Assembly: GCA_905221615.1 (NCBI GenBank)
Contig: CAJNDT010002902.1
Location: 372,001 to 436,000 of the forward strand
Source of the DNA: Symbiodinium sp. CCMP2592
Taxonomy: Eukaryota; Sar; Dinophyceae; Suessiales; Symbiodiniaceae
Reading direction: 5' to 3'
Length of the DNA stretch: 64,000 bases
Shown: piece after piece, positions 24,508 to 42,631 of the stretch
Layout of the letters: each line of letters starts with the position of its first letter
Position numbering within the stretch: the stretch's first letter is position 1
Translations under genes and position numbers: made by a program
The notes under the pieces: generated by a model
Database searches by the model: none
What the model was told of the DNA's origin: nothing
Seen by the model: the letters and a program-made list of their open reading frames with translations, nothing else

Positions 24508-24838
24508 TTGTAGTGTTTTGGGGCGGGGTAGTTTTGGCAGTTCCCAGTGCTGGTGTCTGGGCGCCCCCGGCCAGCACTGGAGGACATCGAGGGCCGTCCC
24601 TTGGTGTGCGTAGTGGGGGTAGTGCCATTGGAGCTCCAGCCCTGTCGGTGCCTCTGGAGTCTCCTTTATCTGCAACTGACGGTTTTGCTGCTCACATCGT
24701 GCGTTAACTTGGTTGCTCCACCATTGAGACGATCAGTTTTCTGCCAGGTTGACACAGCACTGCAGCTTTTCTGTCAATGCGATTGAATTTTGGAGGGCTT
24801 GCGCTTATTCTGAGCATTTGCATCTCTGGCATTACGTC

Positions 24839-25387
24839 ATGGACCATACACAGACGGGCAGAGAACGAGGCACAGCAGCGGCAGCAGGAGAGACAACGCG
24901 ATCAGGGACTCCAGCACAGAGCCTCGACATTGCATACCTGGTTTACATCGTACAACTTGTGCAGTTCCCACTGTGGGCTTTGGTTGACTCGGGCATCAGT
25001 TGCTACTTCCGTCAACATGAGCATTGCGCAGCAACGAGAACTGAAGTCTTCGATCAAATCCAGAGCGAGGTGCAGGGTCGGGATGCAAGACATGTGCTTG
25101 AAGTTTTCTGTATGCTTCTGGACGGCGAGTATCGAACAGCCTACCTTGAAGAAGTGTATTCCTTGCTACTGCCGGCAATTGATGCCGAAATTGCACAACT
25201 TGAAGCGCGGATGCAGCCAGACCGTCTTGCACAGCTGGAAGGGTACCAACAGTCGGCCGAAACTTCGGGCCCCTTCGAGGTTATCATTGTATCAGATTCA
25301 GATGAAGCGGCCCCCGGGGCCTCTGTTGCAGATGCCGCCTCGGAAGCTGAGTCCGATGCCACGGTGCTTTATTTTGAGGCTGATTAG
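24839..25387 (+). CDS. LINE-A ORF1 protein
   Basis: The frame is open from 24749; the first ATG is at 24839, giving 182 residues. The counterpart in LINE-B (177 residues from its first ATG) aligns over the middle: a hydrophobic stretch, then D.GI..YF.Q, then a helical block with LE.F..LL.G..R..(Y/F).E..Y.LL. This conservation shows it is a real protein rather than a shadow of ORF2, which is open in another frame here. The acidic C-terminus contains EVIIVSDSDE, which fits the SUMO-interacting motif pattern (hydrophobic core followed by Ser/Asp/Glu). Function is unknown; ORF1 proteins of LINEs are commonly RNA-binding chaperones, but no RRM or zinc knuckle was seen. Confidence 0.7.
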   Translation: MDHTQTGRERGTAAAAGETTRSGTPAQSLDIAYLVYIVQLVQFPLWALVDSGISCYFRQHEHCAATRTEVFDQIQSEVQGRDARHVLEVFCMLLDGEYRTAYLEEVYSLLLPAIDAEIAQLEARMQPDRLAQLEGYQQSAETSGPFEVIIVSDSDEAAPGASVADAASEAESDATVLYFEAD

Positions 25388-25502
25388 CATAACTGAACCA
25401 ACATCCTTTGTGCAGCAGCCCCATGTGCAAGCACAACAGTGTGACAGTGTTGCAGCGCGCGTGCGCGCGCTTCCAGACGGACAGCGCTTCAATGCAGTGT
25501 GC

Positions 25503-28500
25503 ATGGCCAGAGACTGGATGTGCGTTCCCTTCGGCAAGCGTAGAGGACTGATCATTGTCATACACACCTGTATTGGTCTTATCAGACTGTTTTGGTTTGC
25601 TTGCATTGGCTTACTCCGGTTGTGTCATTGGAAATCAGAGATGCGCTATCAGCCCAGGCACGCAGCCATGCACTACCCGAATCACCCTCCTGATGCCAAC
25701 ACCCCACACCCAGATGCCAACAGCAGGAGTCGCCTCGGTCCCAAATCCGAGGATAGCAGAAGACGCAGGCCTCACTTCGGTTTTGCAGCGCACACATGGC
25801 TCATGATGATTTGCATCGCGCTGACTTGCGTCACACCTGCTATGAGTGCGAGGGTTGCTGTCGATTCCACTCCGGCAGCTGGAGTCCGAGAACAGCCGGA
25901 TCCAAATAGGCAGTCGCATCAGGCGGCGAAGCCATGTGGGACATCAGACATTAGAACCCAGCCAGTTTTTACTCAAGCCAGGAAACGAGCCTACAAGCGC
26001 GCGATGGTTCGTGCGCAGACCCAGGGAGTCACCAGGTATAGAGGACGCACCCTTAGTTTGCAACAATTGGCCGGCATGCAAGGTCGAGACGAGACAGGGG
26101 CAGCCACTTCACAGACAAGGCGCCGCTCCACACTTGACACGCATGGCTCAGATGTTTGCTTACTTTGTTGGAATGTTGGGGGTCTGTCTAACCCCATTCT
26201 TGATGAACTCCTCATTTGGTTATCCCTCCCCCAGCATCGCAATATCAAGATCATCTTGCTTCAGGAAACTAGGTGGCAGTTTAGCTCTGAATGGGAGAAC
26301 GACAACTGGTTCATCGTGCACTCGGGACACAGTAAACAGAAAGGGTCCGGGGTCATGACGCTTATATCCAAGGACTTGTGCAGTGCAGAGGACATACGAA
26401 CGAGTGAAGTTGTCCCAGGCCGGGTACTTCATACGCGAATCCCGGCTCCGGGAGGTGCCAGCTGCCTTGATGTTATCAATGTGTATCAGCATGCTTGGGA
26501 TCAGCGAGCAGACGCTGCGGAACTTCGGCGCAAACGCGCCAGGATCCTCGACAGGGTCGACACATGTCTTCAGCAGGTTCCGTGGCGCAACGTCTGTGTT
26601 TGTGCCGGTGACTGGAATGTGCAGCTTGCTCCTTCACCCGGGATGGTCGGCAACAGCACGGTGCATGTGGCAGGACAACGCCAATCAGCACCAGACATGG
26701 AGGCACTCACGGACGTTATGATTGCTAGGCACTTGGTAGCCCTCAACACCTGGTCAGGTCCGCGCAGACAGGCGTTCACCTTCGAACACCAGGAGCATCG
26801 CACTCAACTCGACTACATTTTTGCCCGGCGGCACCAGGTTACGAATCGCATGCGACAATGCAAGCCTCTCCAGGCGTTCCCGGTTACTGCTTGGCGGCAG
26901 TCGGGCCTGCATAGGCCATTAGCCGTTGTTCTTGACTATCGGTGGCAGCCTAAAGCCCGCACAACTGCCAGTAGGCGTGTGGACACAGATGCTTTGGCAC
27001 AAGCGGTCCAGTGGCACACGCCCCAGCTGCATGCGTTCCAAGATGCAGTAAGGCAACAATTGCAAACTCAAGTGATCACGAGCACACTGGACCTCCACCA
27101 GGTGCTCTATGAGAACTGTGTGCAATTCTTTCCGGCGGTTCCAGCTAGGCGGGTGTACGCTCACCAAACAGATGAAGTTCAGCAGATTGTGCGTAGCAGG
27201 TGGAGGCACTTGCAATTGGGCAAATTGTACCGGCAACAGGCGGCTACCCACCTTTCCAGTGCATGGCGGGCTTGGTACCACTTTGCTAGATTTCGAGCAT
27301 TGCGCCGTGAAGCGAACCGCAGTTCGAGGCAGGCACGCAAGCAGCGCTTTGAGCATCTCTTGATCGAAGCTGAGAGGTTTGCGTCGCAGAATAACACCCA
27401 TAAGCTGTATGCAATCATTCGACAACTTGCACCCAAACAACCATTTCGCAGGGTGAAGATCTATGGCACCGATGGTGAAATCCTGAGTCGGGTTGATGAA
27501 GCGGATAGACTCCGTGAGCACTTTCAGAACATTTTCCAAGGTGGCCAGGATCAATGGGACCATGAGTTCCATGAATGCACAGCCACTCCATCAGTTGCGG
27601 ATATTGGCTGGGCTCTTGGGCAGATCCCTCTCAGAAAGGCGGTGCCGAAACACTTCGCACCAGGTGCGGCGTGGCGTGCCACCGCAGGTATCCTAGCACC
27701 GTACGTGCATAAGACAGTGCAGTCCATTTGGAATGGAGCCCCCGTTCCTCAGCACTGGAAGGACGGGTGGCTCTTCCTTATGCGCAAACCGCAGAAACCA
27801 GGCCGCAGCCCTGGGGATTTCCGCCCTCTGTGTCTACAAGACCCTTGTGGTAAAGCTGTAATCAAACTGTTAGCCTGCAGCATACGCCACAAGGTGCAGG
27901 AGTACGCATACCGTTGCCCGCAACACGCTTACTTGCCGCAGAGATCAACAGAGGGTGCCCTGTTGAGTGTGTTTGCTAGATGTCGACAAATTAGGCAGCT
28001 CACCCAGCAAGCCGGGAACAGCATCTTTGCGCGCAGAAGTGGGCACACCTCTGCGCCGTACTCAGGAGGTTACATTTTGTCGCTTGACATGTCAATGGCT
28101 TTCGACGCTGTTCCCAGATGTCTTGTGAGAGATTCCTTGCTGGCAGCAGGGGTTGGGGATCACGAAGTACACATAATTATGGAATGGCTCACCGGCTCTA
28201 CATACCACCTTCAGCATGCACACATCAATCTACGCATCGTGACCGCGCGTGGCATCAGGCAAGGATGTACTTTGTCCCCGCTGATCTGGACATGCTTCAC
28301 TTGTTATGTTGCCTACCAACTGGAACCGACCATCCCACTCACTGACCTTCAAATTTACGCCGACGATTTTCTCTTGAGCAAAATTTTTCACACGAAGCAG
28401 CAGTTCCTTGAGGCTTTGCAGATCGTACCCAAATTCCTTTCAAAACTTGCCTCATTCGGGTTGCGAGTGAATGTGAACAAAACTGCCATGCTCATTCGGA

Positions 28501-31500
28501 TGGCACACCCCGAAGGTCGCAGGTTGTTGACACAACACATGCACACTAGCAGCAAGGGCACCTACATCAGTTGGCTGAGTGATAAACCTTTGCATGTGCC
28601 AGTCCGTCGGTCACACGTGTACTTGGGCTGTGTGATCTCCTTGTATGACTTTGAGAGTCTCACGGTACAGCATCGTATCGAATCTGCCAAGACACAGTTC
28701 TCCAGGTTACGCAGTGTGTTAACGTCCTCCCGATGCCTGGGCCTGAGAAGATGCGCTCATATTTGGCGCGCGTGCATTTGGTCGACTTTGGTGTACGGCT
28801 GGACCTGTTGTGGTTGTTCAGGGTACGTCTTGTCGAAGGCGATGGGACTCGTGAACACGCAGCTTCGTGCCATTGCCAAATCGCCGAGGCATATCACGCA
28901 AACCACAAATCAGGAAGTGTACAACCTTCTCAGTCTTCAAGACCCTGTTGTGCTCCTTAAGCAGGCGGTGGACAATCTCCGGCAACGCCTGGGCCTTGCT
29001 ACGGCCACGCCAGACATTATCATGCAAAATCCGGAAATGCTTGCACAGGCCACTTGGGCACGTGAGCAGCTGACTGACGCAGTCACAGGGTGCTGTCGCC
29101 TTGAGCGCATCGTGCCTACTGAAGGGGTTGCCTGCCCTGAGTGTGGTGTTTACTTCGACTGCGAAACTTCCATGCGCAAACATAAATCCCGTAAGCACCC
29201 GGATATCGCGCCCACCCAACCAATTAACATAAGCACCCTGTCCCGCCAAGACTTTTGCATTGATGGAATGCCGATTTGCAGAGGCTGTCACCGGCACTTT
29301 CATCATTTCCAGACCCTTTTGCGGCATGTGGCCAACGATAGATGTCCGGCCCTACGTGCACTTCTGCGTCCAAAAGCCCAGACACTGCACAATGATGGGA
29401 GTGTGCCCACAGCTGGTGCAACAATTGAGCATGATGACAGCAGCGTGCCACCACCGCCACCTTCATCACCACCACCACCGCCATCATCACAGCCATTGCC
29501 TGAACCTGAACCTGTTGCTCAAAGAGGGCAGCTTCTCTGTGACATTGCACATGGGGGCGTTCAGACGCTTCTTGATCGGATACGCAATGTTCCGGACCTT
29601 AGGGGCGAACTCATGTCACGATGCTGTCTTTGTAGGCAATGGTTCTCCGATCCTAGACACATCAAGTATCACTTGCAAAAGTCTCACAAAGCCATCTTTG
29701 ACGATTGCCAAGAGCTTGCTTTGGCTGACTGCCGGGGACTTGTCGGTGCCATCCTTACTCCATGTGAGTTTTGTGAGCAGCCGTTCACGAGGAAGTCCAG
29801 GCATGTTGTTGGCTGCCCGGTCTTGTTTCAGGCTGCCTTTTCTTGCAGAGCATATGACCGAGCTCACCAAGGAGGGTGTTTCATCTCTGTTCGGGGCAGT
29901 GCTACCAGCAGTCAGCATGCTCGAGGACGGAACAGGAGCACAGGGATCTCAAAACAAGAATCCCAGACCACCTGCGACACCCTTGACAGGGCAGGCACAT
30001 ATGGGACCGAAGGACAACAAGAAGCCAGAGAGACCAGCAAAGTTCCAGAAAGGCCAGGGCAAAGGCAAGAACAAATCAAAAAGGCAGCGCGAGACATCAG
30101 AGGCTTCTTCGGAGCGAGCACCAGAACAATCGCTGATCCCGTTGATAGCCAAGCTATGCTTGAGGCACGAGGACTCAATCAACATTCTTCAGGCAGATCG
30201 AGCATACACGATGATCTTCAAGACCACAGGCGGGGAGACCATGCTATCGACAGTCAACGATCTTTCAGTGCGATGGAAGGAACTTCAGGCTGCAGGGAAG
30301 ACCGATTGTCCCAAGCGCATGGCTCTCTTCAAGGGCATCCTCCTAGAACTCCTCACGCGGGCCAAAGCGGTGCTGAGCGTGGAGGAAAAGGTGCAGCTGC
30401 TCATTCAATACAATTGGATTGTCAAGAAGGACGGAAGGGAGCCAGCTTGGATGCCATTGGTCTGGAGTGTGGCTCAGCAGAAGGAGATCGTGTGTCCAAA
30501 TGTGGGACCGCTCCCACACTCCGATGCGGTGAAGGCGCTCGAGACGCTGCTGGCATTGGCCAGCGGGCAGATCGTGCAGCGCTTTCATCCAACGCGGCAG
30601 CTCGCGGAGGAATACACCGGCGAGGTGCTCGAGTTCAAGCTGGAGACCTCGATCAAAGGTTCCGAGGCGATGAAGGTTCACGAGGCTCTGGAGACTCTGT
30701 GCAGCTCCGCGATTTGGATGCTGGTGGGCGCCAGACTCCGACCACAGGGGCTGAAGAGAGATCCACTTGCGCGGAAACTTCAGGAGCTGCTCTCCGGCGG
30801 GTGCTGGCCCTAAAACTGCACAATCATGGCAACCTTTGTTACCAGAATGCCTTCGTGATGACTTGGCTATGGGCCACCTTGCATGCTTACACGCGTGAGG
30901 TCGGGGAACACATCGATGCACGACTAGGTCGATGCTCAGGCCTTGTTCAGGCATTGCTTTCGGGCTCATATGATCGCTTGTCGAGGGTCTTTGCTTGGAG
31001 CGCCGTCTTGCAACAGTGGTCACGACCCCAGCAACAACATGATATAGGCGAGTTTGCCATGCATGCATTGCCTAAGCTGCGGACTGGCATGATGCAAGGC
31101 CTTTGGTTTGCCAGAGTTAGAGCTGGGACCCCAGCAGTCCCAGAGGGCCGTGAAGTGGATCGCGGCCCTTTGCATCTCCCAATCACAATGCCAATTCCAG
31201 AGGATGCATGCACCATACAACAGTGCGTTGAGGCTTGGTGCCAGCAGGATGATGTTCATGCTTTGGGGTTTGCCTCGCCCTTAATCCTTGTGCAGCTCGG
31301 TCGCTTCCGACAGCGGTCACACCGCCATGTGCGCAAATTCAAAGGGATTGTTGAGCTTGATGGGATCATTAGCGTACCGGTTTTTGCCAATGACAATAAT
31401 CTGGACTTGAATCACTGTCAATATCGTGTCATTGCGGGGGCTTTCCACATTGGAAACACCCCAGCCTCAGGTCATTATCGAGGTCTCCTTTGTGAGGCTT

Positions 31501-31658
31501 GTGATGTGCCGGGTCCGGTAAACCCAGGGGTGCCTCTGCGCGCACTCGAGAATGCATTTGAGACCGATGATGGTCGTATCCCACGCAAGCTTGATAGCCC
31601 CGAACATTCGCTTATCCTCAAAAACACGTACCTTGTCTGGTTGCTCAAACAAAGTTGA
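25503..31658 (+). CDS. LINE-A ORF2: endonuclease-RT-zinc finger-USP-like polyprotein
   Basis: The frame is open from 24777, but ORF1 occupies the first part. The ATG at 25503 lies after the ORF1 stop and matches a Met at 33208 in LINE-B, giving 2,051 residues. Order: two hydrophobic segments; APE-type endonuclease (WNVGGL, LLQETRW, GDWNVQL, TQLDYIFAR, GLHRPL; about 26155-26940); reverse transcriptase (LSLDMSMAFD, RQGCTLSPL, YADD at 28356-28367); zinc fingers C..C..H..H at about 29130-29200, 29270-29345, 29620-29690 and 29760-29815; a ~340-residue linker overlapping a +1-frame ORF; then a C-terminal USP-like domain. That domain has Cys box HGNLCYQNAF (Cys codon 30837), His box SGHYRGLL (His codon 31473) and a terminal NTYLVWL. 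It would nick the target, copy the RNA and possibly cleave ubiquitin or process the polyprotein. RNase H is absent. Confidence 0.85.
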   Translation: MARDWMCVPFGKRRGLIIVIHTCIGLIRLFWFACIGLLRLCHWKSEMRYQPRHAAMHYPNHPPDANTPHPDANSRSRLGPKSEDSRRRRPHFGFAAHTWLMMICIALTCVTPAMSARVAVDSTPAAGVREQPDPNRQSHQAAKPCGTSDIRTQPVFTQARKRAYKRAMVRAQTQGVTRYRGRTLSLQQLAGMQGRDETGAATSQTRRRSTLDTHGSDVCLLCWNVGGLSNPILDELLIWLSLPQHRNIKIILLQETRWQFSSEWENDNWFIVHSGHSKQKGSGVMTLISKDLCSAEDIRTSEVVPGRVLHTRIPAPGGASCLDVINVYQHAWDQRADAAELRRKRARILDRVDTCLQQVPWRNVCVCAGDWNVQLAPSPGMVGNSTVHVAGQRQSAPDMEALTDVMIARHLVALNTWSGPRRQAFTFEHQEHRTQLDYIFARRHQVTNRMRQCKPLQAFPVTAWRQSGLHRPLAVVLDYRWQPKARTTASRRVDTDALAQAVQWHTPQLHAFQDAVRQQLQTQVITSTLDLHQVLYENCVQFFPAVPARRVYAHQTDEVQQIVRSRWRHLQLGKLYRQQAATHLSSAWRAWYHFARFRALRREANRSSRQARKQRFEHLLIEAERFASQNNTHKLYAIIRQLAPKQPFRRVKIYGTDGEILSRVDEADRLREHFQNIFQGGQDQWDHEFHECTATPSVADIGWALGQIPLRKAVPKHFAPGAAWRATAGILAPYVHKTVQSIWNGAPVPQHWKDGWLFLMRKPQKPGRSPGDFRPLCLQDPCGKAVIKLLACSIRHKVQEYAYRCPQHAYLPQRSTEGALLSVFARCRQIRQLTQQAGNSIFARRSGHTSAPYSGGYILSLDMSMAFDAVPRCLVRDSLLAAGVGDHEVHIIMEWLTGSTYHLQHAHINLRIVTARGIRQGCTLSPLIWTCFTCYVAYQLEPTIPLTDLQIYADDFLLSKIFHTKQQFLEALQIVPKFLSKLASFGLRVNVNKTAMLIRMAHPEGRRLLTQHMHTSSKGTYISWLSDKPLHVPVRRSHVYLGCVISLYDFESLTVQHRIESAKTQFSRLRSVLTSSRCLGLRRCAHIWRACIWSTLVYGWTCCGCSGYVLSKAMGLVNTQLRAIAKSPRHITQTTNQEVYNLLSLQDPVVLLKQAVDNLRQRLGLATATPDIIMQNPEMLAQATWAREQLTDAVTGCCRLERIVPTEGVACPECGVYFDCETSMRKHKSRKHPDIAPTQPINISTLSRQDFCIDGMPICRGCHRHFHHFQTLLRHVANDRCPALRALLRPKAQTLHNDGSVPTAGATIEHDDSSVPPPPPSSPPPPPSSQPLPEPEPVAQRGQLLCDIAHGGVQTLLDRIRNVPDLRGELMSRCCLCRQWFSDPRHIKYHLQKSHKAIFDDCQELALADCRGLVGAILTPCEFCEQPFTRKSRHVVGCPVLFQAAFSCRAYDRAHQGGCFISVRGSATSSQHARGRNRSTGISKQESQTTCDTLDRAGTYGTEGQQEARETSKVPERPGQRQEQIKKAARDIRGFFGASTRTIADPVDSQAMLEARGLNQHSSGRSSIHDDLQDHRRGDHAIDSQRSFSAMEGTSGCREDRLSQAHGSLQGHPPRTPHAGQSGAERGGKGAAAHSIQLDCQEGRKGASLDAIGLECGSAEGDRVSKCGTAPTLRCGEGARDAAGIGQRADRAALSSNAAARGGIHRRGARVQAGDLDQRFRGDEGSRGSGDSVQLRDLDAGGRQTPTTGAEERSTCAETSGAALRRVLALKLHNHGNLCYQNAFVMTWLWATLHAYTREVGEHIDARLGRCSGLVQALLSGSYDRLSRVFAWSAVLQQWSRPQQQHDIGEFAMHALPKLRTGMMQGLWFARVRAGTPAVPEGREVDRGPLHLPITMPIPEDACTIQQCVEAWCQQDDVHALGFASPLILVQLGRFRQRSHRHVRKFKGIVELDGIISVPVFANDNNLDLNHCQYRVIAGAFHIGNTPASGHYRGLLCEACDVPGPVNPGVPLRALENAFETDDGRIPRKLDSPEHSLILKNTYLVWLLKQS
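29854..30813 (+). CDS. LINE-A overlapping +1-frame ORF (ORF-X)
   Basis: 319 residues in the +1 frame relative to ORF2, filling the linker between the last zinc finger and the USP-like domain. It begins MTELTKEGVSSLFGAVLPAV and has a basic Lys/Gly/Gln-rich segment followed by a globular part (LIPLIAKLCLRHEDSINIL; FHPTR; WMLVGARLRP). LINE-B encodes a 318-residue homologue in the same place and frame. In one 80-residue segment I count about 49 identities by eye, whereas the ORF2 frame over the same DNA is poorly conserved and low complexity. CTTTTCTTGCAG, a splice-acceptor-like string, ends 5 nt before the ATG. The ORF stops 24 nt before the USP Cys codon. Function is unknown; no family was recognised. 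Confidence 0.75.
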   Translation: MTELTKEGVSSLFGAVLPAVSMLEDGTGAQGSQNKNPRPPATPLTGQAHMGPKDNKKPERPAKFQKGQGKGKNKSKRQRETSEASSERAPEQSLIPLIAKLCLRHEDSINILQADRAYTMIFKTTGGETMLSTVNDLSVRWKELQAAGKTDCPKRMALFKGILLELLTRAKAVLSVEEKVQLLIQYNWIVKKDGREPAWMPLVWSVAQQKEIVCPNVGPLPHSDAVKALETLLALASGQIVQRFHPTRQLAEEYTGEVLEFKLETSIKGSEAMKVHEALETLCSSAIWMLVGARLRPQGLKRDPLARKLQELLSGGCWP

Positions 31659-32290: not shown

Positions 32291-32621
32291 TTTTGTTTGT
32301 AGTGTTTGGGCGGGGTAGTCTTTGCAGTTCCCTGGTCCAGCGCTGGGCGCACCCGGCTGGTTCAGGAGGCGCAGTGGGCTGACCTACTGTGACGTAGTGG
32401 AGGGAAGCCATTGGTAGCTCCAGCTCTTGCGGTGCCTCTGGAGTGCCATACAAATCGTGCAGTGAGTGCATCCGTGTTCCAGGAACACCCAACAATTTCC
32501 GGCTCTGCATTCATCCACGCATGGTTTTTACATTGCTGCTGATTTTCTGTTACATTGGAGAACTTTTCTGGACAGAACAGACGGCACTGAAGCCTCACCT
32601 GGCCACTACGCTACAGGAGAG

Positions 32622-33155
32622 ATGGAAGAAGCATTCGAATGCCTACAGGCATCAGAACCTGGAAGTGGTAGCAGAGCGCATGCGAGCGCTGACAGTGTTG
32701 CAGAGGCCACGAGAAGGGCCACTCCAATATTGGAGAGATCCATATCTGAAGCTCTGGACACTGGGCAGCTGGCATTTTACCTCTGTTTCAGAAGCGTACC
32801 CCAACGGGCTATCACAGACATCGGGATCCATGTATATTTTCAACAGTACGCAAACCCAGATGCTGCAGCGCGACGTGAGATCACTGGGCAACTGGAACGT
32901 GAGATCAGCGGGAAAGACATGGCAGGAACCCTGGAACTGTTTCGCCAACTTTTGGAGGGAGACCATCGTGAGCAGTTTTATGAAGACATCTACGAGCTGC
33001 TGGAGCGACATGTGCGTAGCATGCAGAGACCGACTTCGCTTGCAGACTTGTTGCTTCCTCTGCCCGAAGCAAGTAACACACCCGAACCTTGCTCCCCTTC
33101 AACAGTTCTGGACTCTGACTCTTCGGAGTCGAACGCCACGCTTCCCTACTGCTGA
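32622..33155 (+). CDS. LINE-B ORF1 protein
   Basis: The frame is open from 32466; the first ATG is at 32622, giving 177 residues, close in length to the LINE-A ORF1. The central region aligns with LINE-A ORF1 (DIGIHVYFQQY; LELFRQLLEGDHREQFYEDI). The C-terminus is acidic and Ser-rich (TVLDSDSSESN), a weaker version of the SIM-like motif in LINE-A. It overlaps the 5' extension of the ORF2 frame; the real ORF2 probably starts 53 nt after this stop. Probable RNA-binding or nuclear accessory protein of the element, by analogy only. Confidence 0.65.
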   Translation: MEEAFECLQASEPGSGSRAHASADSVAEATRRATPILERSISEALDTGQLAFYLCFRSVPQRAITDIGIHVYFQQYANPDAAARREITGQLEREISGKDMAGTLELFRQLLEGDHREQFYEDIYELLERHVRSMQRPTSLADLLLPLPEASNTPEPCSPSTVLDSDSSESNATLPYC

Positions 33156-33207
33156 CCCTAAGCCCCAGCACTATCTACCTTCTCGTCACGTAGCTCTGTT
33201 GGTACCG

Positions 33208-36200
33208 ATGATGTTCAAATGCAGAGGCGCGAAGCTCAGACTTTACACGTGCTGTGGGGCTATCACATGGTTCTGGTTTGCCTGTTACGGGTTCTCCAGG
33301 TTATCGAGATTCTTCGGCAAACGCGGCCATGCATCGCTGCACAGATGCACTGTACAGAGGCCCCAACATGCACATCCATCTACGCCCCAGTATCCTGCAA
33401 ACGCCCCACCCCTCTCTCCAGGAAGAAGCAGCCGCCTCGGTCCCAAGTCCGAGGCTAGCAGGCCGGTGAAGACATTAAACTCCAGTGGAATTGTGCGTGT
33501 CATGCTGCTCTGGATAATCGCTGCACAATTTCTGTCTAAGCCTGCTAGTGGTGCGAGGGTTGCTGCTGCTTCCACAACAGCAGCTGGAGTCGAAGCACAT
33601 CAGGCTCCATCGAGCTCGCTGCCCCAGGCGGCGAAGCCTTGTGGGACCCGTGAAATCAGAGCGCAACCGGCATATAGCAACGTCAGGAAACGTGCCTTTC
33701 GGCGCGCGCTTGTGCGCGCGCAGGCGCAAGGCTCCACCATGTATCGAGGACGTAGACTTACTTGGCAACAGCTTGCGGGTGCCAGAGGTCCTGCCGAACC
33801 AGCCGCACAGCCTGGCAGACACAGGCGGGAAGTAAGGCAAGAGTGCAGTGAGAGTCCGCATTCTCCTTGCATGATCAGTTGGAATGTGGGAGGGCTCTCG
33901 AACTCCATTCTTGATGAACTTATCATCTGGCTTGAAACTCGTAAACACATCAAGATTGTTCTGCTACAAGAAACACGGTGGCAGTTTAGCTCGGAATGGT
34001 CCAGTGAGCACTGGAACATCATACATGCCGGAAACACCAAACAAAAAGGCTCGGGAGTCATGACCATGATTTCGAAGTCGCTGTGCAGTGCTGAAGACAT
34101 CAGAGTTCAGGAGATTGTCTCGGGTAGGGTGCTGCATACGCGCATCCCGGGATATGGAGGACACAATCACATTGACTTGCTTAATGTCTATCAGCATGCG
34201 TGGGACCAGCGCGCAGAGGCGGGCGAACTGAAGCGCAAACGCGCGTGGATCCTTGCGAAGATCGATGCGTGCATTCAGCAGATTCCTTGGCGCAACTTGT
34301 GCATTTGTGCAGGGGACTGGAACGTCCAGTTGGAGCCGATGTCTGACCTGATTGGTAATAGCACTAACATCCGTGTGGGACAAGCGCAATCAGCCCCGGA
34401 TATGGCGTCCCTTACAGATGTCATGATTGCACGCCAATTGGTGGGTTTGAACACTTGGACGGGGCCCAAACGCAAGGCTTACACCTTTACACACAATGGG
34501 GGACGCACCCAGATTGACTTTGTTTTTGCTCGCAAGCACCAGGTTACACGCCAGATGCGCAGTTGTCATGCTCTTGAGGGCTTCCCGGTTACTGCCTGGC
34601 GTCAATCAGGACTGCATCGCCCCCTCCAGGTCAGCTTGGATTACCGCTGGATACCGAGCAGCACGCCTCAGCAGTCCCGCCGCATTGACCATGATGCCAT
34701 CGCCACGGCGGTCAGGCAGTGCACACCCCAACTTCACGACTACCAACTTGATGTACAGACTGTCATGGCCCGGAACCCCCCTAGGGATACGAGTGCATTG
34801 CATCAGGTGCTGTATGACTGCTGCCTTCGCCACTTCCCAGCCTCGACACAGAGGCGAGAATATGCCCACAACCACGCTGAAGTCCGTGATGTGGTGCACA
34901 GCCGCTGGTTGCACCTGCAGAGAGGCAAGTACCACAGGAGGTTTGCAGCTGCTTGCATGTCCAGCGCCTGGCACTGCTGGCATCATTTTGCGAGATTTAG
35001 AGCCCTCCGCAGAGAGGCCAACAAAGCATCCAGAACTGCTCGCAGACAACGGCGACAACGGTACGAGAACCTGTTGCAAGAGGCGGAGAAATTTGCCAGA
35101 CAGCAAAACACACATAAGATGTTTTCCATCATTAGGCAATTGGCGCCGAAACAGCCGCATCGCAAAGTCAAGATTTACGGCAAAGAAGGCGAGATTCTCA
35201 GCCGTCAAGAGGAGGTTGCATGTCTCAAAAAGCACTTCTGTGATATCTTTCAGGGTGCAAGTTACGATTGGACTCACCCCATGGAGTCCCCTGCTTCTCC
35301 GCCAGCTCCTGAGACTATTTGCGCGGCGCTGGAGCGCATCCCGTTACGCAAAGCGGTCCCTGCACATATGGCTCCGGGCGCAGCTTGGAGAGCAGCTGCA
35401 CGTCAGGTCACGGACTTGGTTCATCAGGAAGCCTGCAAAGTCTGGGCGGCTGCCTCAATACCGCAAAACTGGCGTGACGGGTGGATGGCCCTAGCTGCCA
35501 AACCTCAGAAATCAGGTCGTGGCCCGGCCGATTACCGGCCATTATGCCTACAGGACCCGAGTGGCAAAGCAGTGATAGGTATATTAGCGGACCAGATCCG
35601 ACCCACAGTTCGCTTGTATGCCAACAGGTACCCACAGCATGCATACTTAGCGGGCAGATCAACTGAGGGTGCGTTGCTCAGTGTGTTCCACAAGTGCAGG
35701 GAAATCCGTGGCCTCACGCAAGCAGCAGGGAACAGCGTCTTTGCCAGGCGCAGTGGCCATACTGCGGAGCCGTACACAGGTGGGCTGATTTTGTCATTGG
35801 ACATGACGACTGCATTTGACACAGTTCCGAGAGCGCATGTTCGCGATTCCCTGATTGAAGCTGGCGTTGCACAAAGTGACGTGTCCATCATCATGTCATG
35901 GCTCACAGGTGCGACGTACCATCTCAAACATGCTCACATTAACCTGCGTATCATCACGGAAAGAGGCGTGCGCCAGGGCTGCCCACTTTCGCCACTGGTT
36001 TGGGCCTGCTTTACATGCTACATTGCTAAACGGCTGACTGATGTGATCTGTCTTGATGACTTGCAGATTTACGCCGACGATTTCATTTGGAGCTGCATTT
36101 TCCACACTAAACAGCAATTTCTGCACACACTCAGGACGGTGCCACTCTTCATACAGAAGCTTCGGCAGTATGGACTCAGGGTAAATCTCAACAAAACGGC

Positions 36201-39200
36201 TGTTTTAATTCGCATGGCCAGGCAAGAGGGCAAAGCTTTACTTAAGCTGCACCTGTGCAAGACCACCCAAGGCACTTTCCTGAACATCTTGAGTGATAAG
36301 CCCCTCCGTATCCCGGTGAAGAAATCGCATGTTTACCTTGGATGTGTCATTTCGCTGTTTGATTTTGAAAGCTTGACGGTTCGTCACCGAATCGAGGCCG
36401 CTCGGAATCAGTACTCTAGGCTACGTAGTGTTTTGACCTCCACAAGATGCATGAGCATGAAACGCAGGGCAAGGATTTGGCTTGCGTGCATATGGTCAAC
36501 ATTGACCTACGGCTGGACCTGTTGCGGTTGTTCGGGCTTTCTCTTCACTCAGGTCTGCGGTCTTGTGACCACACAGATGCGAGCCATCGCACGGTCACCA
36601 CGACACATCGCACACACCACGAATGAGGAAGTCTTTGCTATGTTGGGCTTACCAGGACCGGCTGAGCTGATGCAGCACGCCTTGGAAAACTTGCGCCAGC
36701 GCCTTCAGTTTGTCCGGCAGACTGACGACACCATCATGTGCAATCCGAAGCTGCATGCTCAGGCCAACTGGGCGTTTGAGGCGCTGACTGATGCCATTGC
36801 CAGCAAAGGCAGATTAGAGCGTGTCACCGGAACCCAGGGCGTCGCTTGCACTGAGTGTGGTATCTACTTTGACACTGAAAGTGCTATGCGCAAGCATCGT
36901 ACGCGCCAGCATCCCGAGGCGACAGGTGTGCAGAAACTTGAACTCAGTCAGGTACGGCGTGAAGTTGTGTGTGTCGACGGAATGCCTGTCTGCCGTGGGT
37001 GTGGCAAAGCTTTCCACCATATGCACACATTGCTCAAACATGTGCGCAATCAGCGTTGCCCAGGCTTGCTCAACTTAGCCAATGACAGTTCACGTGCACC
37101 GGATGAACCCGTTCCTGTTGTGCAGCGCGGTGACCTCATTAATGCATGGGGCAAGGGGGGCACTTGTGCGCTTCTCGCCTCGCTCAAGTCACAGCCTGAG
37201 CTTAGAAAGGAGCTCATGCAACACTGTTGTCTCTGCCGTCAGTGGTTCTCCGATTGGCGCCACATTAAGACACATATGCAAAAGTCGCACAAGGAGGATT
37301 ACCAAGCTTGTCATGAGGGTGCAATTGCAGACTGCAGAGGCTTGACTGGGGCCGTGCTCAATCCTTGTGAATACTGTGAGTCCTCTGTAACTAGACGTTC
37401 CCGGCATGCTGTAGGCTGCCCTATTCTCTATCAAGTTGCCTTCGCTTGCAGAGTTCATGGCAGACCTCACGAAAGACCAGATCGTCTCACTCTTCGGGGG
37501 AGTGCTGCCAGCAGTGAGCTTAGCCGCGGGCTCGCAGAGGCCGCCAGCCACCCCGCAACAGGCGGGGAGAGGGTTGCAGAAGTCGGGGTTGACGGAGCGA
37601 CCACCGAAGTACCACAAGCACCAGACCAATGGCAAAGGCAAAGGCAACGGCAAGGGTCGCTACAAGGACAAGCGGCCCAGAGAGGACTCGGAGCATACTT
37701 CGGCTCAGGAGGGAGACAATCTGGATCCTCAGTTGATACCCCTCATTGCTCAGCTTTGCCTTCGGTTCGAAGACGCAATAAACATATTACGGTTGGACCG
37801 AGCGTATGTGATGCTGTTCAAAACAAAGTCGGAAGAGTCGATTGTGAAGACCCTCCACGATCTCTCCCAGAGATGGGAGGAACTCAAAGAGGCCAAACAA
37901 ACGGACTCAGCCAAGAGGATCGCGCTCTTCAAGGGCATGATGCTGGAGCTCCAGACGAGGATCAAAGGCATGATCGAGAAGGAAGACAAGGTCAAGCAAC
38001 TGATTCAGATGGGGTGGATGTCCAAGCAAGAGGGTCGGGAGCCGATGTGGCTCCCACTCGTATGGAATGTGGAACAGCAGAAAGACGTGCCGTGCCCCGA
38101 CATGGGACCCCTCCCCCATACAAAGGCCATGCAAGCTCTGGACACATTGCTGGAATACGCATGCGGCCAGGTGATACACAGATTTCATCCCACGAGGCCA
38201 CTGGTTCCGGAGCACGCCGGCGAGATCCTGGAGTTCAAGCTGGAGGTGAGCCTGAAGGGCGTTGCGCCGACTCAGGTCCACGATGCATTGACGCAACTCA
38301 GCAACTCAGCGCTCTGGTTGTTGATCGGCGCCCGGATGCGCCCGGACGGCCTCCGGAGATCAGCAACGGCACAGCAGTTGCAGAAGCTGCTCGCAGGAAG
38401 GTGCTGCGCCTAGCACTCCGAAACACTGGTAACACATGTTACCAGAATGCCTTTGTGATGTCCTGGCTTTGGGCCCTTGTGAATGCAAACGCCAATCAGG
38501 TGGGCGGATACAACGATGAGGGATTAGGTCGCGGGCGTAATATCATCAACGCACTCCTTACGGGCTCCTGCGACAGGCTCTCCAGCATTTTCGCATGGTC
38601 GTCTATCATGCAGAATTGGCCGCGCCCTCAACAGCAGCATGACGTCTGTGCCTTTGCGTCACACGCTTTAGCCAAACTCAAAACCCCACTGATGGGGGGC
38701 AGCTGGGAGGCTAGGCGCGAGGATCCTGTTTTCCGCGTCGTGGATATGGGGTCCCAAGCTCTGCCCATCACCATGGCCATCCCTGAAGGCAAACACACAC
38801 TGCCTGAATGCATTGAGGCATGGCAACATCAAAATGCCAAACATGCTTTGGGATATGCTCCAGACTTACTTATGCTCCAGCTCGGTCGCTTCCGTCAAAG
38901 ATTGCACAGACGTGTTCGCAAATACCAGGGCATTGTGATGCTGCCTTCACGAGTGCAGATGCCGTGCTTCACGGCACCCAATGAGCTCGGCACTCACAAT
39001 GTGGATTATAGAATCATTTCGGGAGTCTTCCACCTAGGGAACACGCCGGCCTCAGGTCATTACCGGACCTTTCTGAGCGATGCTGAAGGGAGCGGGATTT
39101 CGGATAATCCTGGGGAGCCCCATGGTGCTCTCGCGAATGCCTGGGAAACTGATGACGGACGTGTGCCTATCAAGCTTGACCATACTTTAGTTGACACTGT

Positions 39201-39240
39201 GCTGACTAACACCTACACGGTGTGGCTCGCAAAACTGTGA
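33208..39240 (+). CDS. LINE-B ORF2: endonuclease-RT-zinc finger-USP-like polyprotein
   Basis: 2,010 residues from the ATG at 33208 (a second ATG follows immediately); the frame is open upstream to 32443. N-terminal hydrophobic segments match those of LINE-A, the second ending PASGARVAA versus PAMSARVAV. The endonuclease shows WNVGGL, LLQETRW, GDWNVQL, TQIDFVFAR and GLHRPL. The RT shows [19 protein letters not shown] and YADD (36070-36081). Zinc fingers: CTECGIYFDTESAMRKHRTRQH, then C2HC and C2H2 units to about 37420. The USP-like domain has NTGNTCYQNAF (Cys codon 38437), SGHYRTFL (His codon 39058) and terminal NTYTVWL. Its Cys box is closer to the classical GNTCYxNA than that of LINE-A. No RNase H domain. 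Confidence 0.85.
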   Translation: MMFKCRGAKLRLYTCCGAITWFWFACYGFSRLSRFFGKRGHASLHRCTVQRPQHAHPSTPQYPANAPPLSPGRSSRLGPKSEASRPVKTLNSSGIVRVMLLWIIAAQFLSKPASGARVAAASTTAAGVEAHQAPSSSLPQAAKPCGTREIRAQPAYSNVRKRAFRRALVRAQAQGSTMYRGRRLTWQQLAGARGPAEPAAQPGRHRREVRQECSESPHSPCMISWNVGGLSNSILDELIIWLETRKHIKIVLLQETRWQFSSEWSSEHWNIIHAGNTKQKGSGVMTMISKSLCSAEDIRVQEIVSGRVLHTRIPGYGGHNHIDLLNVYQHAWDQRAEAGELKRKRAWILAKIDACIQQIPWRNLCICAGDWNVQLEPMSDLIGNSTNIRVGQAQSAPDMASLTDVMIARQLVGLNTWTGPKRKAYTFTHNGGRTQIDFVFARKHQVTRQMRSCHALEGFPVTAWRQSGLHRPLQVSLDYRWIPSSTPQQSRRIDHDAIATAVRQCTPQLHDYQLDVQTVMARNPPRDTSALHQVLYDCCLRHFPASTQRREYAHNHAEVRDVVHSRWLHLQRGKYHRRFAAACMSSAWHCWHHFARFRALRREANKASRTARRQRRQRYENLLQEAEKFARQQNTHKMFSIIRQLAPKQPHRKVKIYGKEGEILSRQEEVACLKKHFCDIFQGASYDWTHPMESPASPPAPETICAALERIPLRKAVPAHMAPGAAWRAAARQVTDLVHQEACKVWAAASIPQNWRDGWMALAAKPQKSGRGPADYRPLCLQDPSGKAVIGILADQIRPTVRLYANRYPQHAYLAGRSTEGALLSVFHKCREIRGLTQAAGNSVFARRSGHTAEPYTGGLILSLDMTTAFDTVPRAHVRDSLIEAGVAQSDVSIIMSWLTGATYHLKHAHINLRIITERGVRQGCPLSPLVWACFTCYIAKRLTDVICLDDLQIYADDFIWSCIFHTKQQFLHTLRTVPLFIQKLRQYGLRVNLNKTAVLIRMARQEGKALLKLHLCKTTQGTFLNILSDKPLRIPVKKSHVYLGCVISLFDFESLTVRHRIEAARNQYSRLRSVLTSTRCMSMKRRARIWLACIWSTLTYGWTCCGCSGFLFTQVCGLVTTQMRAIARSPRHIAHTTNEEVFAMLGLPGPAELMQHALENLRQRLQFVRQTDDTIMCNPKLHAQANWAFEALTDAIASKGRLERVTGTQGVACTECGIYFDTESAMRKHRTRQHPEATGVQKLELSQVRREVVCVDGMPVCRGCGKAFHHMHTLLKHVRNQRCPGLLNLANDSSRAPDEPVPVVQRGDLINAWGKGGTCALLASLKSQPELRKELMQHCCLCRQWFSDWRHIKTHMQKSHKEDYQACHEGAIADCRGLTGAVLNPCEYCESSVTRRSRHAVGCPILYQVAFACRVHGRPHERPDRLTLRGSAASSELSRGLAEAASHPATGGERVAEVGVDGATTEVPQAPDQWQRQRQRQGSLQGQAAQRGLGAYFGSGGRQSGSSVDTPHCSALPSVRRRNKHITVGPSVCDAVQNKVGRVDCEDPPRSLPEMGGTQRGQTNGLSQEDRALQGHDAGAPDEDQRHDREGRQGQATDSDGVDVQARGSGADVAPTRMECGTAERRAVPRHGTPPPYKGHASSGHIAGIRMRPGDTQISSHEATGSGARRRDPGVQAGGEPEGRCADSGPRCIDATQQLSALVVDRRPDAPGRPPEISNGTAVAEAARRKVLRLALRNTGNTCYQNAFVMSWLWALVNANANQVGGYNDEGLGRGRNIINALLTGSCDRLSSIFAWSSIMQNWPRPQQQHDVCAFASHALAKLKTPLMGGSWEARREDPVFRVVDMGSQALPITMAIPEGKHTLPECIEAWQHQNAKHALGYAPDLLMLQLGRFRQRLHRRVRKYQGIVMLPSRVQMPCFTAPNELGTHNVDYRIISGVFHLGNTPASGHYRTFLSDAEGSGISDNPGEPHGALANAWETDDGRVPIKLDHTLVDTVLTNTYTVWLAKL
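37457..38413 (+). CDS. LINE-B overlapping +1-frame ORF (ORF-X)
   Basis: 318 residues, homologous to the LINE-A ORF at 29854. It begins MADLTKDQIVSLFGGVLPAV. A basic linker (GKGKGNGKGRYKDKRPRED) precedes the conserved globular part (LIPLIAQLCLRFEDAINIL; RFHPTRPL; WLLIGARMRPDGLRRS). Its ATG lies 5 nt after an acceptor-like GCCTTCGCTTGCAG, and its stop lies 24 nt before the USP Cys codon; both spacings equal those in LINE-A. Conservation of this frame rather than the ORF2 frame indicates that it is translated. Function unknown. Confidence 0.75.
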   Translation: MADLTKDQIVSLFGGVLPAVSLAAGSQRPPATPQQAGRGLQKSGLTERPPKYHKHQTNGKGKGNGKGRYKDKRPREDSEHTSAQEGDNLDPQLIPLIAQLCLRFEDAINILRLDRAYVMLFKTKSEESIVKTLHDLSQRWEELKEAKQTDSAKRIALFKGMMLELQTRIKGMIEKEDKVKQLIQMGWMSKQEGREPMWLPLVWNVEQQKDVPCPDMGPLPHTKAMQALDTLLEYACGQVIHRFHPTRPLVPEHAGEILEFKLEVSLKGVAPTQVHDALTQLSNSALWLLIGARMRPDGLRRSATAQQLQKLLAGRCCA

Positions 39241-40291: not shown

Positions 40292-41044
40292 TTAAGTTTC
40301 ATAGTCGAGGAAAATCGCGAAGGAAACGGAAGTGCCGCGGGTGTTAACCACATTCCCGTCGACGTCGGTGAGCTTGAACCGCAGGGTGCGCAGCGTAATG
40401 GGCCCATGCAATCTGACATAATGGCCTTCGTCGGTTCTGGTTTGCATTATGTTCCCAATGCCTTTGTCGATAATCATTTTGGCGACGATGTCCTGACCCA
40501 GGGGGCCTTTGATGTCGGCGGCGGTGGCGAGCGTGGAACAGCGGAGGAACAGCTCGCTGTACGGATTCATGGTCACGAAGGTGAAGATTTGGAGGGAGCC
40601 CTCGATGAAGGAGGGTCCGAGCAGGTGGTTGATGCTCAGGGGGCGGCTGGGCGTGGCGCCTGCAGGGTAGGAGCCGGAGCCGGGGAAGAGGCTCCGGATT
40701 TCATAGTCGTTCAAGATGCGCCTGTTCCCGTCGTAGGCCACTCCGATCTCGTTGGTTTGTTCCACGTAAGTGGCGGAGCCGTAGTTGCTGCTGATCCAGG
40801 CGGCCAGGCGCGCGCCGGTGTAGGCGCCCACCGGGAGCACCGCCCAGTTGAGGGTCTGCAGGGCCTCGTCGATCCAGTACATGTAGAAGCCGCGGTCCGT
40901 GCTGAGGAAGGCGTCGGCCACCCGGAACTTTAGCGCCGAGAGCCTGGCGCCTGTCTGCAGGTGGATGGTCTCCCCGATGTCAAATTCGAAGCTGCTGTCG
41001 TCGCCCGCCACGCGCTTGCGGGAGTCGACGTAGATCGTGGTCAT
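40292..41044 (-). CDS. Penton-like (single jelly-roll) minor capsid protein
   Basis: 250 residues from the Met of MTTIYVDSRKRV; the frame is open back to an ATG at 41248. The opening (YVDSRKR...SSFEFDIGE, then a conserved hydrophobic FRVADAFLS block) and the closing part (ITLRTLRFKLTDVDGNVVN...SFAIFLDYE) match the layout of penton-type proteins in Polinton-like elements: N-terminal VDSR.R, a beta-rich body and a C-terminal LTD..GN strand. It would form the vertex capsomer. It follows the ATPase gene, the usual association of morphogenesis genes. The 68-residue N-terminal extension is treated separately. Assignment is by remembered family pattern, not by search. Confidence 0.55.
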   Translation of the reverse strand: MTTIYVDSRKRVAGDDSSFEFDIGETIHLQTGARLSALKFRVADAFLSTDRGFYMYWIDEALQTLNWAVLPVGAYTGARLAAWISSNYGSATYVEQTNEIGVAYDGNRRILNDYEIRSLFPGSGSYPAGATPSRPLSINHLLGPSFIEGSLQIFTFVTMNPYSELFLRCSTLATAADIKGPLGQDIVAKMIIDKGIGNIMQTRTDEGHYVRLHGPITLRTLRFKLTDVDGNVVNTRGTSVSFAIFLDYET

Positions 41045-41248
41045 AAGGTGCCTTTTCTTACGGAAGAAACTCCGGGCCGCGGAGGCGTCGGACTCGTTGC
41101 TGATCTGCCGGGGGCGGTCGGGGCAAGGCCACCGCGGGTCCACCACGCGCTGCGTGCTGGTGCAGCAGCTCAGATTGTTGCACTCAGCGTCGCAGAGCGG
41201 GCCGTTGCCTAGGAGCTTCCCCACCACCTGCGACAGGATCGTCCCCAT
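41045..41248 (-). CDS. N-terminal extension of penton ORF, possible myristoylated small protein
   Basis: In frame with the penton-like ORF and overlapping the ATPase 3' end by 65 nt. It reads MGTILSQVVGK..., matching the N-myristoylation consensus MGxxxS, then a Cys-containing stretch (CDAECNNLSCCTS) and a basic end (FFRKKRHL). It could be a genuine extension that anchors the penton protein to membrane, a former separate small protein fused in frame, or simply upstream open frame. Confidence 0.3.
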
Positions 41249-41993
41249 CGTTTACGAGGAACTTGCGGTCGAAACGCACCCAAAACATGTCCTCTTTCGA
41301 GGCCCGCAGATTGACGAACCAGAAGCTGTACTTTTCTCGGGTCGCCTCCTCGTACATGCCGTAGAGCACGTCCTTGGGCAGCATGGCGCTCAGTTCCTCT
41401 ACCAAAGCGTCCAGCTCCAGCTGGTTCCGCAGGCGGAAGACGCAGTAGAACATGGTGTTCACTCGCACGGCGCTGCTCATGAGCCGCAGCTTTTGCGTCG
41501 AAACCCAGGTGCTGATGCAGTAGTGTCGGCCGCGGATGAAGAGCGTGTCCAAGATGCCATCGCCCGTTTTGCGGTGCACGGCCGGGTTATCAGCGTGATC
41601 GTCGATCACGATTAGGACCTGGTAGAGCTTCTTCATGCCCAATTGTTTGGACTGTTGGGTGATCTTCTTCTGCTGGGCCAGGATTAGCCTGAGCGCGGCT
41701 TCGTCCCAGTCATCCCACCAGCACTGCTCGCGGTCCGTGTTGACCCCCAAGTCTTTCCTTATGTACTCTTTCACGGGCTCCCACTGGGGGTCCATGTCGA
41801 TGCTGGGGCTCAGGATGTACACGCGCTCAAAGCAGCCCCGGTACTGCTCAAGGATCATCGACACGAGGAGAACGGTCTTCCCAGAAGCGGACGGCGCGCA
41901 GAGGATGCCGTTGGAGGGCGTCCTGCAGACCGCCCGGTCTCGCGGCTGCTTGACTTCGTACGTTTGGCTGGGGAAGAGCTTCACCTTTCCCAT
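41184..41993 (-). CDS. A32/FtsK-HerA-type genome-packaging ATPase
   Basis: 269 residues from the Met of MGKVKLFPSQ, 5 nt after the MTase stop; the frame is open 23 codons further upstream. Walker A is APSASGKT (GKT at residues 38-40) and Walker B is VLIVIDDHAD (Asp 131-132). An RTRGRH-like arginine region (LFIRGRHYCISTWVSTQKL) follows, including the S/T-Q pattern after a beta strand that is typical of the viral A32 family. Length fits Polinton and PLV packaging ATPases (about 230-280 residues). It would pump DNA into the capsid. The C-terminus beyond RFDRKFLVND is low-complexity and overlaps the penton extension. Confidence 0.8.
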   Translation of the reverse strand: MGKVKLFPSQTYEVKQPRDRAVCRTPSNGILCAPSASGKTVLLVSMILEQYRGCFERVYILSPSIDMDPQWEPVKEYIRKDLGVNTDREQCWWDDWDEAALRLILAQQKKITQQSKQLGMKKLYQVLIVIDDHADNPAVHRKTGDGILDTLFIRGRHYCISTWVSTQKLRLMSSAVRVNTMFYCVFRLRNQLELDALVEELSAMLPKDVLYGMYEEATREKYSFWFVNLRASKEDMFWVRFDRKFLVNDGDDPVAGGGEAPRQRPALRR

Positions 41994-41998
41994 GTCTT

Positions 41999-42631
41999 TT
42001 AGTCCATACCGCCTTGTAACATTGGTACAGGCACATTTACACTCGCGGCGATCTCCTCGCACAGCCGAGGCGGGATGGAGTATAGTTGGCCCCGGTTCTG
42101 GCCGATTCGTTCCTTGCTGCCCATGCGTTGTGCGGTCGCGGCATGGCTACCGTTGTTGAAGGCCTCGCAACGGCTAGCCTTGCAGCACACAGGACGACTG
42201 GGGCGCCAGGGCAGGTTGTTCCAGATGCGCGTCGCTTTCCGATAGCGATAACCGTACTTACAATAGGTCACGTCATCGAAGGGCAGGTGTTTCATGAAGC
42301 TGCGCGTTTTCAGCAGCCCGCTCCTGGGGTTTTCGATGGCCCACCACCGCGGGCGGAGGTACCCGATGATCTCGATGGTTCGGAGCACCAAGCGGTCGCC
42401 CTCCTCCAAGCGACGGGGTCGACGTGTCATCGCTCGAGAGAACTCGGTGCGCACGGGGCTGGCCCAGACGAGGTCGAAGTGTCCGGGCTGGAAGGCCCTG
42501 TAATCCCATTCCAGAATGTCCTCGCAGATGGCGGGGTGGCTCTGCGGGTCGGAGTCAAGACTCGGTACCTGCCAACCAATGGCCTCGAAGGCGATGCTCT
42601 TCGTGCCGGAGAACAACTCCAGCAGTCTCAT
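41999..42631 (-). CDS. C5-cytosine methyltransferase-like protein, catalytic Cys missing
   Basis: 210 residues. Motif I is LELFSGTKSIAFEAIGW near the N-terminus (SAM binding); an acidic loop LDSDPQ and ICEDILEWDY follow; motif IV should read SPPCTEFS but reads SPVRTEFS (residues 58-65). The ENP of motif VI is intact at residues 100-102 (WWAIENPRSGLLK). A block with CKYGYRYRKATRIWNNL and Cys/His residues resembles small MTases of phages and Polinton-like elements. Loss of the Pro-Cys pair should abolish methyl transfer; it looks like two compensating 2-base indels. It may be a dead MTase, a DNA-binding relic or a pseudogene. The start overlaps the small membrane ORF by 77 nt. Confidence 0.7.
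   Translation of the reverse strand: MRLLELFSGTKSIAFEAIGWQVPSLDSDPQSHPAICEDILEWDYRAFQPGHFDLVWASPVRTEFSRAMTRRPRRLEEGDRLVLRTIEIIGYLRPRWWAIENPRSGLLKTRSFMKHLPFDDVTYCKYGYRYRKATRIWNNLPWRPSRPVCCKASRCEAFNNGSHAATAQRMGSKERIGQNRGQLYSIPPRLCEEIAASVNVPVPMLQGGMD

Follow-up and report, generated by a model that had tools for sequence, protein, structure and literature searches.

Two tandem LINEs and their +1-frame ORF

The window, i.e., the whole 64,000-nucleotide stretch that was analysed of DNA from Symbiodinium sp. CCMP2592, a dinoflagellate alga symbiotic with corals (the strain is named S. tridacnidorum CCMP2592 in the available text of PMC8045281), contains two tandem LINEs, each with a long ORF2 composed of an endonuclease, a reverse transcriptase (RT), zinc-finger-like stretches and a USP-like domain. 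In copy A, ORF2 lies at 24777..31658 on the forward strand and has 2293 codons counted from the first ATG; its Pfam domains are Exo_endo_phos at residues 465-689, RVT_1 at residues 1007-1240 and UCH, a match below the Pfam cut-off, at residues 2014-2234. ORF2 of copy B lies at 32443..39240 (+) and has 2265 codons counted from GTG, and the true start is probably further downstream both than this GTG and than the first ATG of copy A. Both copies are classed as LINEs, with Exo_endo_phos and RVT_1 exceeding the Pfam cut-offs in each, and copies of the LINE family are numerous and dispersed across the genome searched (1.098 Gb, 5,383 contigs). The USP-like (UCH) domain occupies 30816..31478 (+) in copy A, where it is reached through the overlap described below, and 38416..39078 (+) in copy B, where it exceeds the Pfam cut-off.

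In the linker between the zinc-finger-like stretches and the USP-like domain, a further ORF, here called X, runs in the +1 frame of ORF2, at 29854..30813 (+; 319 codons plus stop) in copy A and at 37457..38413 (+; 318 codons plus stop) in copy B. These are the positions given by the first-pass annotation, which had also described a common start M(T/A)(E/D)LTK, an end exactly 24 nt before the USP Cys codon and about 49 identities in one stretch of 80 residues. It was found that X starts with MTELTK in copy A and MADLTK in copy B, that in both copies the Cys codon begins 24 nt after the X stop ends, and that the best-matching 80 residues of the alignment include 49 identical ones, with 173/307 identical over its whole length. 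The ORF2 frame had been said to be diverged over the same DNA and yet to stay open; over the same codons it is identical at 90/307 residues, which is not above the unused third frame (97/307), and it contains 0 stops in either copy, compared with 12 and 15 in the third frame. The X frame of copy A is open from 29233 onwards, amounting to 526 codons from stop to stop, and this X has the relatives P0001-P0006 among public proteins. The spacing from the X stop to the USP Cys codon is also 24 nt in L012 and L017 and is 36-114 nt in nine other copies examined; in L021, X extends beyond the Cys codon. The layout is common to many divergent LINE families of the genome, beyond copies A and B.

As read by the authors from the alignment, X has a short motif at the N-terminus, then a stretch rich in Gly and Lys, and a conserved C-terminal region of ~220 residues. 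A family search for X, which had been proposed as a check, returned no useful relative in Pfam or the PDB: no Pfam-A family matched in more than 1/18 members, and the best match to a PDB chain (E 0.0029) covered 32 positions of a designed protein. Searches for X in viral contigs, and for ORF2 in viral and genome contigs, gave no loci. X points to an undescribed LINE protein family. The Gly/Lys-rich N-terminal stretch is the one feature that hints at a role, and X is tentatively proposed to be a nucleic-acid-binding partner within the RNP of the element. X proteins are also on record from S. microadriaticum and Symbiodinium sp. CCMP2456.

Several other features lie in or near the two elements. 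A PIP-box-like motif, R-D-I-R-G-F-F, is read by the authors in the ORF2 frame inside the overlap of copy A (30090..30110, +); similar motifs (…RGIxAFF, QQRSLADFF, TDIGTFF, TPIGRYF) are repeated in the RT frame of several families, including L010, L024 and L029, and one is also present in the linker of P0012, which holds no X. This motif is possibly the sole constrained ORF2 motif within the overlap. Candidate ORF1s of copies A and B lie at 24749-25387 (+) and 32466-33155 (+) and share 48/164 residues, with no Pfam match above the cut-off for that of copy B; the ORF2 frame is open over almost the whole of both (permutation P 0.107 and 0.023). Beside the LINEs, three virus-like genes are found on the reverse strand at 41184-42062, 40292-41248 and 41999-42631, one of which matches the Pfam Pox_A32 packaging ATPase family, while the other two have no Pfam match.

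Selection and stop codons in the overlap

The genome search for X gave 1,817 candidates, of which 125 matches were scored, and a stop inside X was found in 5/125. Thirty-four nested copies were read, including the window pair, with identity to copy A down to 26%; for partial copies and copies with indels, the count is limited to the portion of X that was read in a single frame (e.g., L015 past its break).

Frame-specific rates, likewise proposed as a check, differ strongly between the two frames. When four related pairs (1,257 codons) were pooled, omega in the overlap was 0.23 (0.20-0.27) for X, with single pairs at 0.17-0.29, and 1.22 (0.99-1.53) for ORF2, with single pairs at 0.97-1.76; a fifth pair, outside the pool, gave 0.47 for X and 1.66 for ORF2. 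The RT region of W_A and L012 shows the reverse pattern, with an omega of 0.26 for ORF2 and 1.02 for the phantom +1 frame, and in four USP pairs the values are 0.18-0.48 for ORF2 and 0.55-1.05 for the phantom frame. Two of these USP controls have a phantom-frame omega under 1 (0.60 and 0.55), so the method leans somewhat low, though not as low as 0.23. The W_B/L017 control includes 2 stops in L017, and the upstream control of L024/L029 was left unused, being out of phase (11 and 12 stops). Since X has an omega of 0.23, a value to which the phantom frames of the controls do not fall, against 1.22 for ORF2, X is supported as the protein under selection in the overlap and the ORF2 linker as neutral in sequence. 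Between families, X is conserved at 26-40% identity where ORF2 is neutral. The dual coding suggested by the first-pass annotation is supported by these data: X is not routinely broken, and divergence between the frames is strongly unequal.

Stop codons of the ORF2 frame are absent over the part of X read in 32/34 nested copies, with one each in L020 and L030, compared with 4-25 stops in the third frame of the 34 copies. The number expected was obtained by shuffling the synonymous codons of X 400 times and counting ORF2 stops; for copies A and B the means were 9.7 and 7.0, and zero was never reached. Across the copies, 3.1-13.4 stops are expected by permutation, or 9.8-21.5 when codons are used as in the RT region; P does not exceed 0.025 in any of the 34 copies, and in 27/34 none of the 400 permutations matched the observed count. 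The avoidance can also be seen at single codons. An X codon ending in T ahead of AA, AG or GA creates an ORF2 stop; at such risky places, counted where the residue allows T, T occurs at 0/735 compared with 448/2,349 elsewhere in a set of 13 nested X genes with pairwise identities of no more than ~78% (P 2e-58), a count that excludes the one ORF2-frame stop of L030. This copy was counted only past its stop in the permutation, omega and T analyses alike, and L020, a near-duplicate of copy B, lies outside the T count.

It might be supposed that X is untranslated and that its frame is open as a side effect of the codons used in ORF2. When ORF2 codons are permuted, the share of trials that leave X open varies between copies (0-32%), and openness alone is therefore weak evidence. 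The explanation nevertheless has practically no likelihood in view of the omega of 0.17-0.29 for X in the four pairs, its preservation across families where ORF2 is neutral, and the homologous X genes that stand free in a sister clade and contradict it.

Frameshifting, which the first-pass annotation had named as another possibility, would yield one protein, with ribosomes shifting +1 into X and then back to the USP frame and with the ORF2 linker untranslated. This agrees with the constant frame relation of X and USP in the 21 copies whose USP was mapped, and with L026, L028 and L031, in which RT and X lie in one frame. However, the continuity of RT and X in these three copies is due to small indels relative to sister copies; X of the sister clade forms an ORF by itself, with an ATG of its own; and in nine nested copies the X frame extends upstream of the ATG by 0-45 nt only, which leaves little room for a shift. 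Moreover, a frameshift would give selection no reason to hold the ORF2 frame open across X, and past the shift site the outer frame would be free to gain stops, yet stops are avoided over the whole overlap. A single frameshifted protein is considered very improbable. An RT-X fusion as a second architecture was also considered for L026, L028 and L031 and was rejected on the sister-copy alignments, and the three were treated as mutated copies.

Because the ORF2 frame is stop-free while the X protein is conserved, ORF2 appears to be translated through X as a spacer. X shows what is expected of an inner protein, namely purifying selection and cross-family conservation, and ORF2 behaves as an outer frame in openness only, its amino-acid sequence being unconstrained. 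It is considered highly probable that X is a real, separate gene of a superfamily of dinoflagellate LINEs, nested wholly in the part of ORF2 that links the last zinc finger to the USP-like domain; ORF2 would be translated across it as an open spacer of ~320 residues that joins the RT/zinc-finger part to the USP part, and the amino acids of this spacer would drift freely, with only stops selected against. Counting against dual coding are the single ORF2-frame stops inside X in L020 and L030 and the indels between the parts of ORF2 in L015, L018, L026, L028 and L031. As a separate observation, L015, L018, L020, L026, L028, L030 and L031 have an ORF2 interrupted by indels or a stop together with an X that is largely open. 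In L034, the ORF2 frame contains a stop 5' of X.

Public ORF2 proteins also keep the linker open (P0007, P0008 and P0009). When their linkers were back-translated in the +1 frame and compared with public X proteins, scores of 749, 703 and 422 were obtained, against 728 in a self check, at most 44 for shuffled linkers (12 shuffles each) and at most 25 for an RT stretch. The three proteins are thus compatible with an X in their +1 frame. P0007 and P0002, and likewise P0008 and P0004, appear to be encoded by two frames of identical or almost identical DNA. In addition, X matches lie in two very long open frames, G000:C4929:114203-115117 (5,104 residues) and G000:C415:45534-46379 (1,676 residues), which are possibly fusions with other coding sequence.

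X as ORF3 in a sister clade

The related ORF2 P0012 has a short linker and 34 matches at 28 loci in this genome. Its clade (P0012 and L039-L043) resembles the nested LINEs in that ORF2 has endonuclease, RT, zinc-finger-like and USP-like parts and in that a homologous X is present, and differs from them in the short linker, in the placement of X as a separate ORF3 downstream of ORF2 (the serial form) and in the lack of stop avoidance in the other frame. In L039, L042 and L043, X is intact, has an ATG of its own and lies 3' of the ORF2 stop; the serial copies of L040 and L041 are broken by frame changes. The gap from the ORF2 stop to the X ATG is about 33-65 nt. An X match is present on the same strand, downstream within 5 kb, at 23/28 serial loci; the pairing of loci used 26/116 X matches, and the five loci without X were compared by eye with the full list. 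Serial and nested X are identical at 65/229 residues.

The -1 frame of serial X contains 20, 15, 19 and 9 stops in L039, L042, L043 and L041, respectively, compared with 19.9, 18.7, 18.1 and 10.0 predicted by permutation, and the broken copy L040 contains 3 compared with 7.3 expected (P 0.025, fewer). T is used at 63/232 risky places and at 203/666 others in L039, L041, L042 and L043, L040 being excluded from this count as broken. Since both stops and T use in serial X are as expected, stop avoidance goes with nesting and not with X itself.

An unrooted RT tree built from 28 sequences separates the four serial members (L039, L040, L041 and P0012) from the other 24 with a support of 1.0, so that one change of place suffices. 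In overprinting, the inner gene is absent from relatives; here, X is present as ORF3 at 23 of the 28 loci of the sister clade. A tentative reading, to which somewhat less than an even chance is given, is that a LINE gene moved: ORF3 would have been relocated into the ORF2 linker in the +1 frame and would be expressed from its own short spliced-leader mRNA. If true, nesting arose by relocation and not by overprinting, and ORF2 was forced to keep a neutral, stop-free shadow frame in many lineages. The reverse direction, from nested to serial, is possible because the tree is unrooted.

Expression of X and relation to known systems

In the nested families, the X ATG lies roughly 8-17 ORF2 codons past the last zinc-finger-like motif and is followed by a stretch like S-L-F-G-x-x-L-P, the equivalent of which in serial X is W-S-F-F-x-x-Y-M-P (authors' readings). 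The X frame is open for just 0-45 nt before the ATG in L035, L037, L010b, L012, L016, L017, L019, L022 and L030; the remaining copies listed have 93-621 nt open. The short upstream opening in the nine copies named speaks for initiation at the X ATG. In the window, putative acceptor-like stretches, GCCTTTTCTTGCAG at 29835..29848 (+) in copy A and GCCTTCGCTTGCAG at 37438..37451 (+) in copy B, lie 5 nt upstream of the X ATG. With an acceptor-like site defined as CAG within 15 nt of the ATG and at least 7/12 pyrimidines preceding, such a site is found before X in 9/16 families compared with 291/1,919 control ATGs (15%); the P of 0.0002 is optimistic, because the thresholds were picked after the first sites and the families share ancestry. 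The close relatives L012, L024, L035 and L042 were omitted from this test. The site is missing in 7/16 families, and CAG within 15 nt is missing in 6/16.

It has been reported, in the available text of PMC12014239, that spliced-leader trans-splicing is widespread in all nuclear mRNA of dinoflagellates; since a leader is added to these mRNAs by trans-splicing, an internal event of this kind is the simplest route to X. X would then be translated from its own AUG on a shorter mRNA, formed by trans-splicing of the leader at the acceptor just upstream, a proposal drawn from sequence features and given a roughly even chance. The alternative mRNA use named in the first-pass annotation would be the likeliest way in which X is started. 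With both frames still coding, X might also be started by internal ribosome entry, by a separate promoter or, in the serial clade, by reinitiation, and this has a considerable probability, though one short of even. Leader-joined X copies of families A and B numbered 0 in the genome search and leader sequences 0 within the window, both weak negatives without a positive control; to the former are added, on the same side, the six families without CAG and the serial gap of merely a few tens of nucleotides. Reinitiation after the ORF2 stop, however, is unable to serve the nested form, and the enrichment of acceptor-like sites before X and the wide use of trans-splicing in dinoflagellates argue against these other starts. 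Internal trans-splicing, as favoured here, would be a possible way to express extra LINE ORFs.

Cis-splicing has to be considered as well, in which introns fuse X into ORF2 or X sits in an intron removed from the ORF2 mRNA. The acceptor-like sites before X are compatible with it, and P0010 and P0011, two NCBI models from Symbiodinium sp. CCMP2592, fuse X-frame and ORF2-frame pieces into one protein; but both models resemble predictions in which separate open frames were joined, and the fusion is probably an annotation artefact. Stop avoidance in the ORF2 frame across X, in turn, requires translation of unspliced ORF2, and cis-splicing is regarded as quite improbable. Errors in gene models at nested-X loci are probable.

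Viruses provide the best-known cases of sense-strand genes that lie entirely inside another gene. Other LINEs have short overlaps of ORF1 and ORF2 at the ORF ends and more than one ORF per element RNA; in contrast, the nested LINEs contain a whole gene of ~320 codons inside another. No nested sense ORF in a non-LTR retrotransposon was found in the literature searched, which includes few subscription papers and is represented by titles and abstract openings. The nested gene described here is old, diverse and repeated in the LINEs of a cellular genome. The surprising part is that nested and serial forms of one gene occur in sister LINE clades of one genome, which provides a natural experiment on the origin and upkeep of overlapping genes.

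The closest parallel is the hepatitis B virus, in which, according to the available text of PMC5604429, the envelope gene is nested in the polymerase gene and is described as de novo in origin. As in that virus, a complete sense-strand ORF is fully nested in a reverse-transcriptase gene, there partly over a spacer (PMC5604429). Hepadnavirus relatives without the nested gene exist, according to the same text, whereas the LINE relatives carry X as a separate downstream ORF instead. Unlike the hepatitis B virus, the host element here is a non-LTR retrotransposon, and the overlap is confined to the linker.
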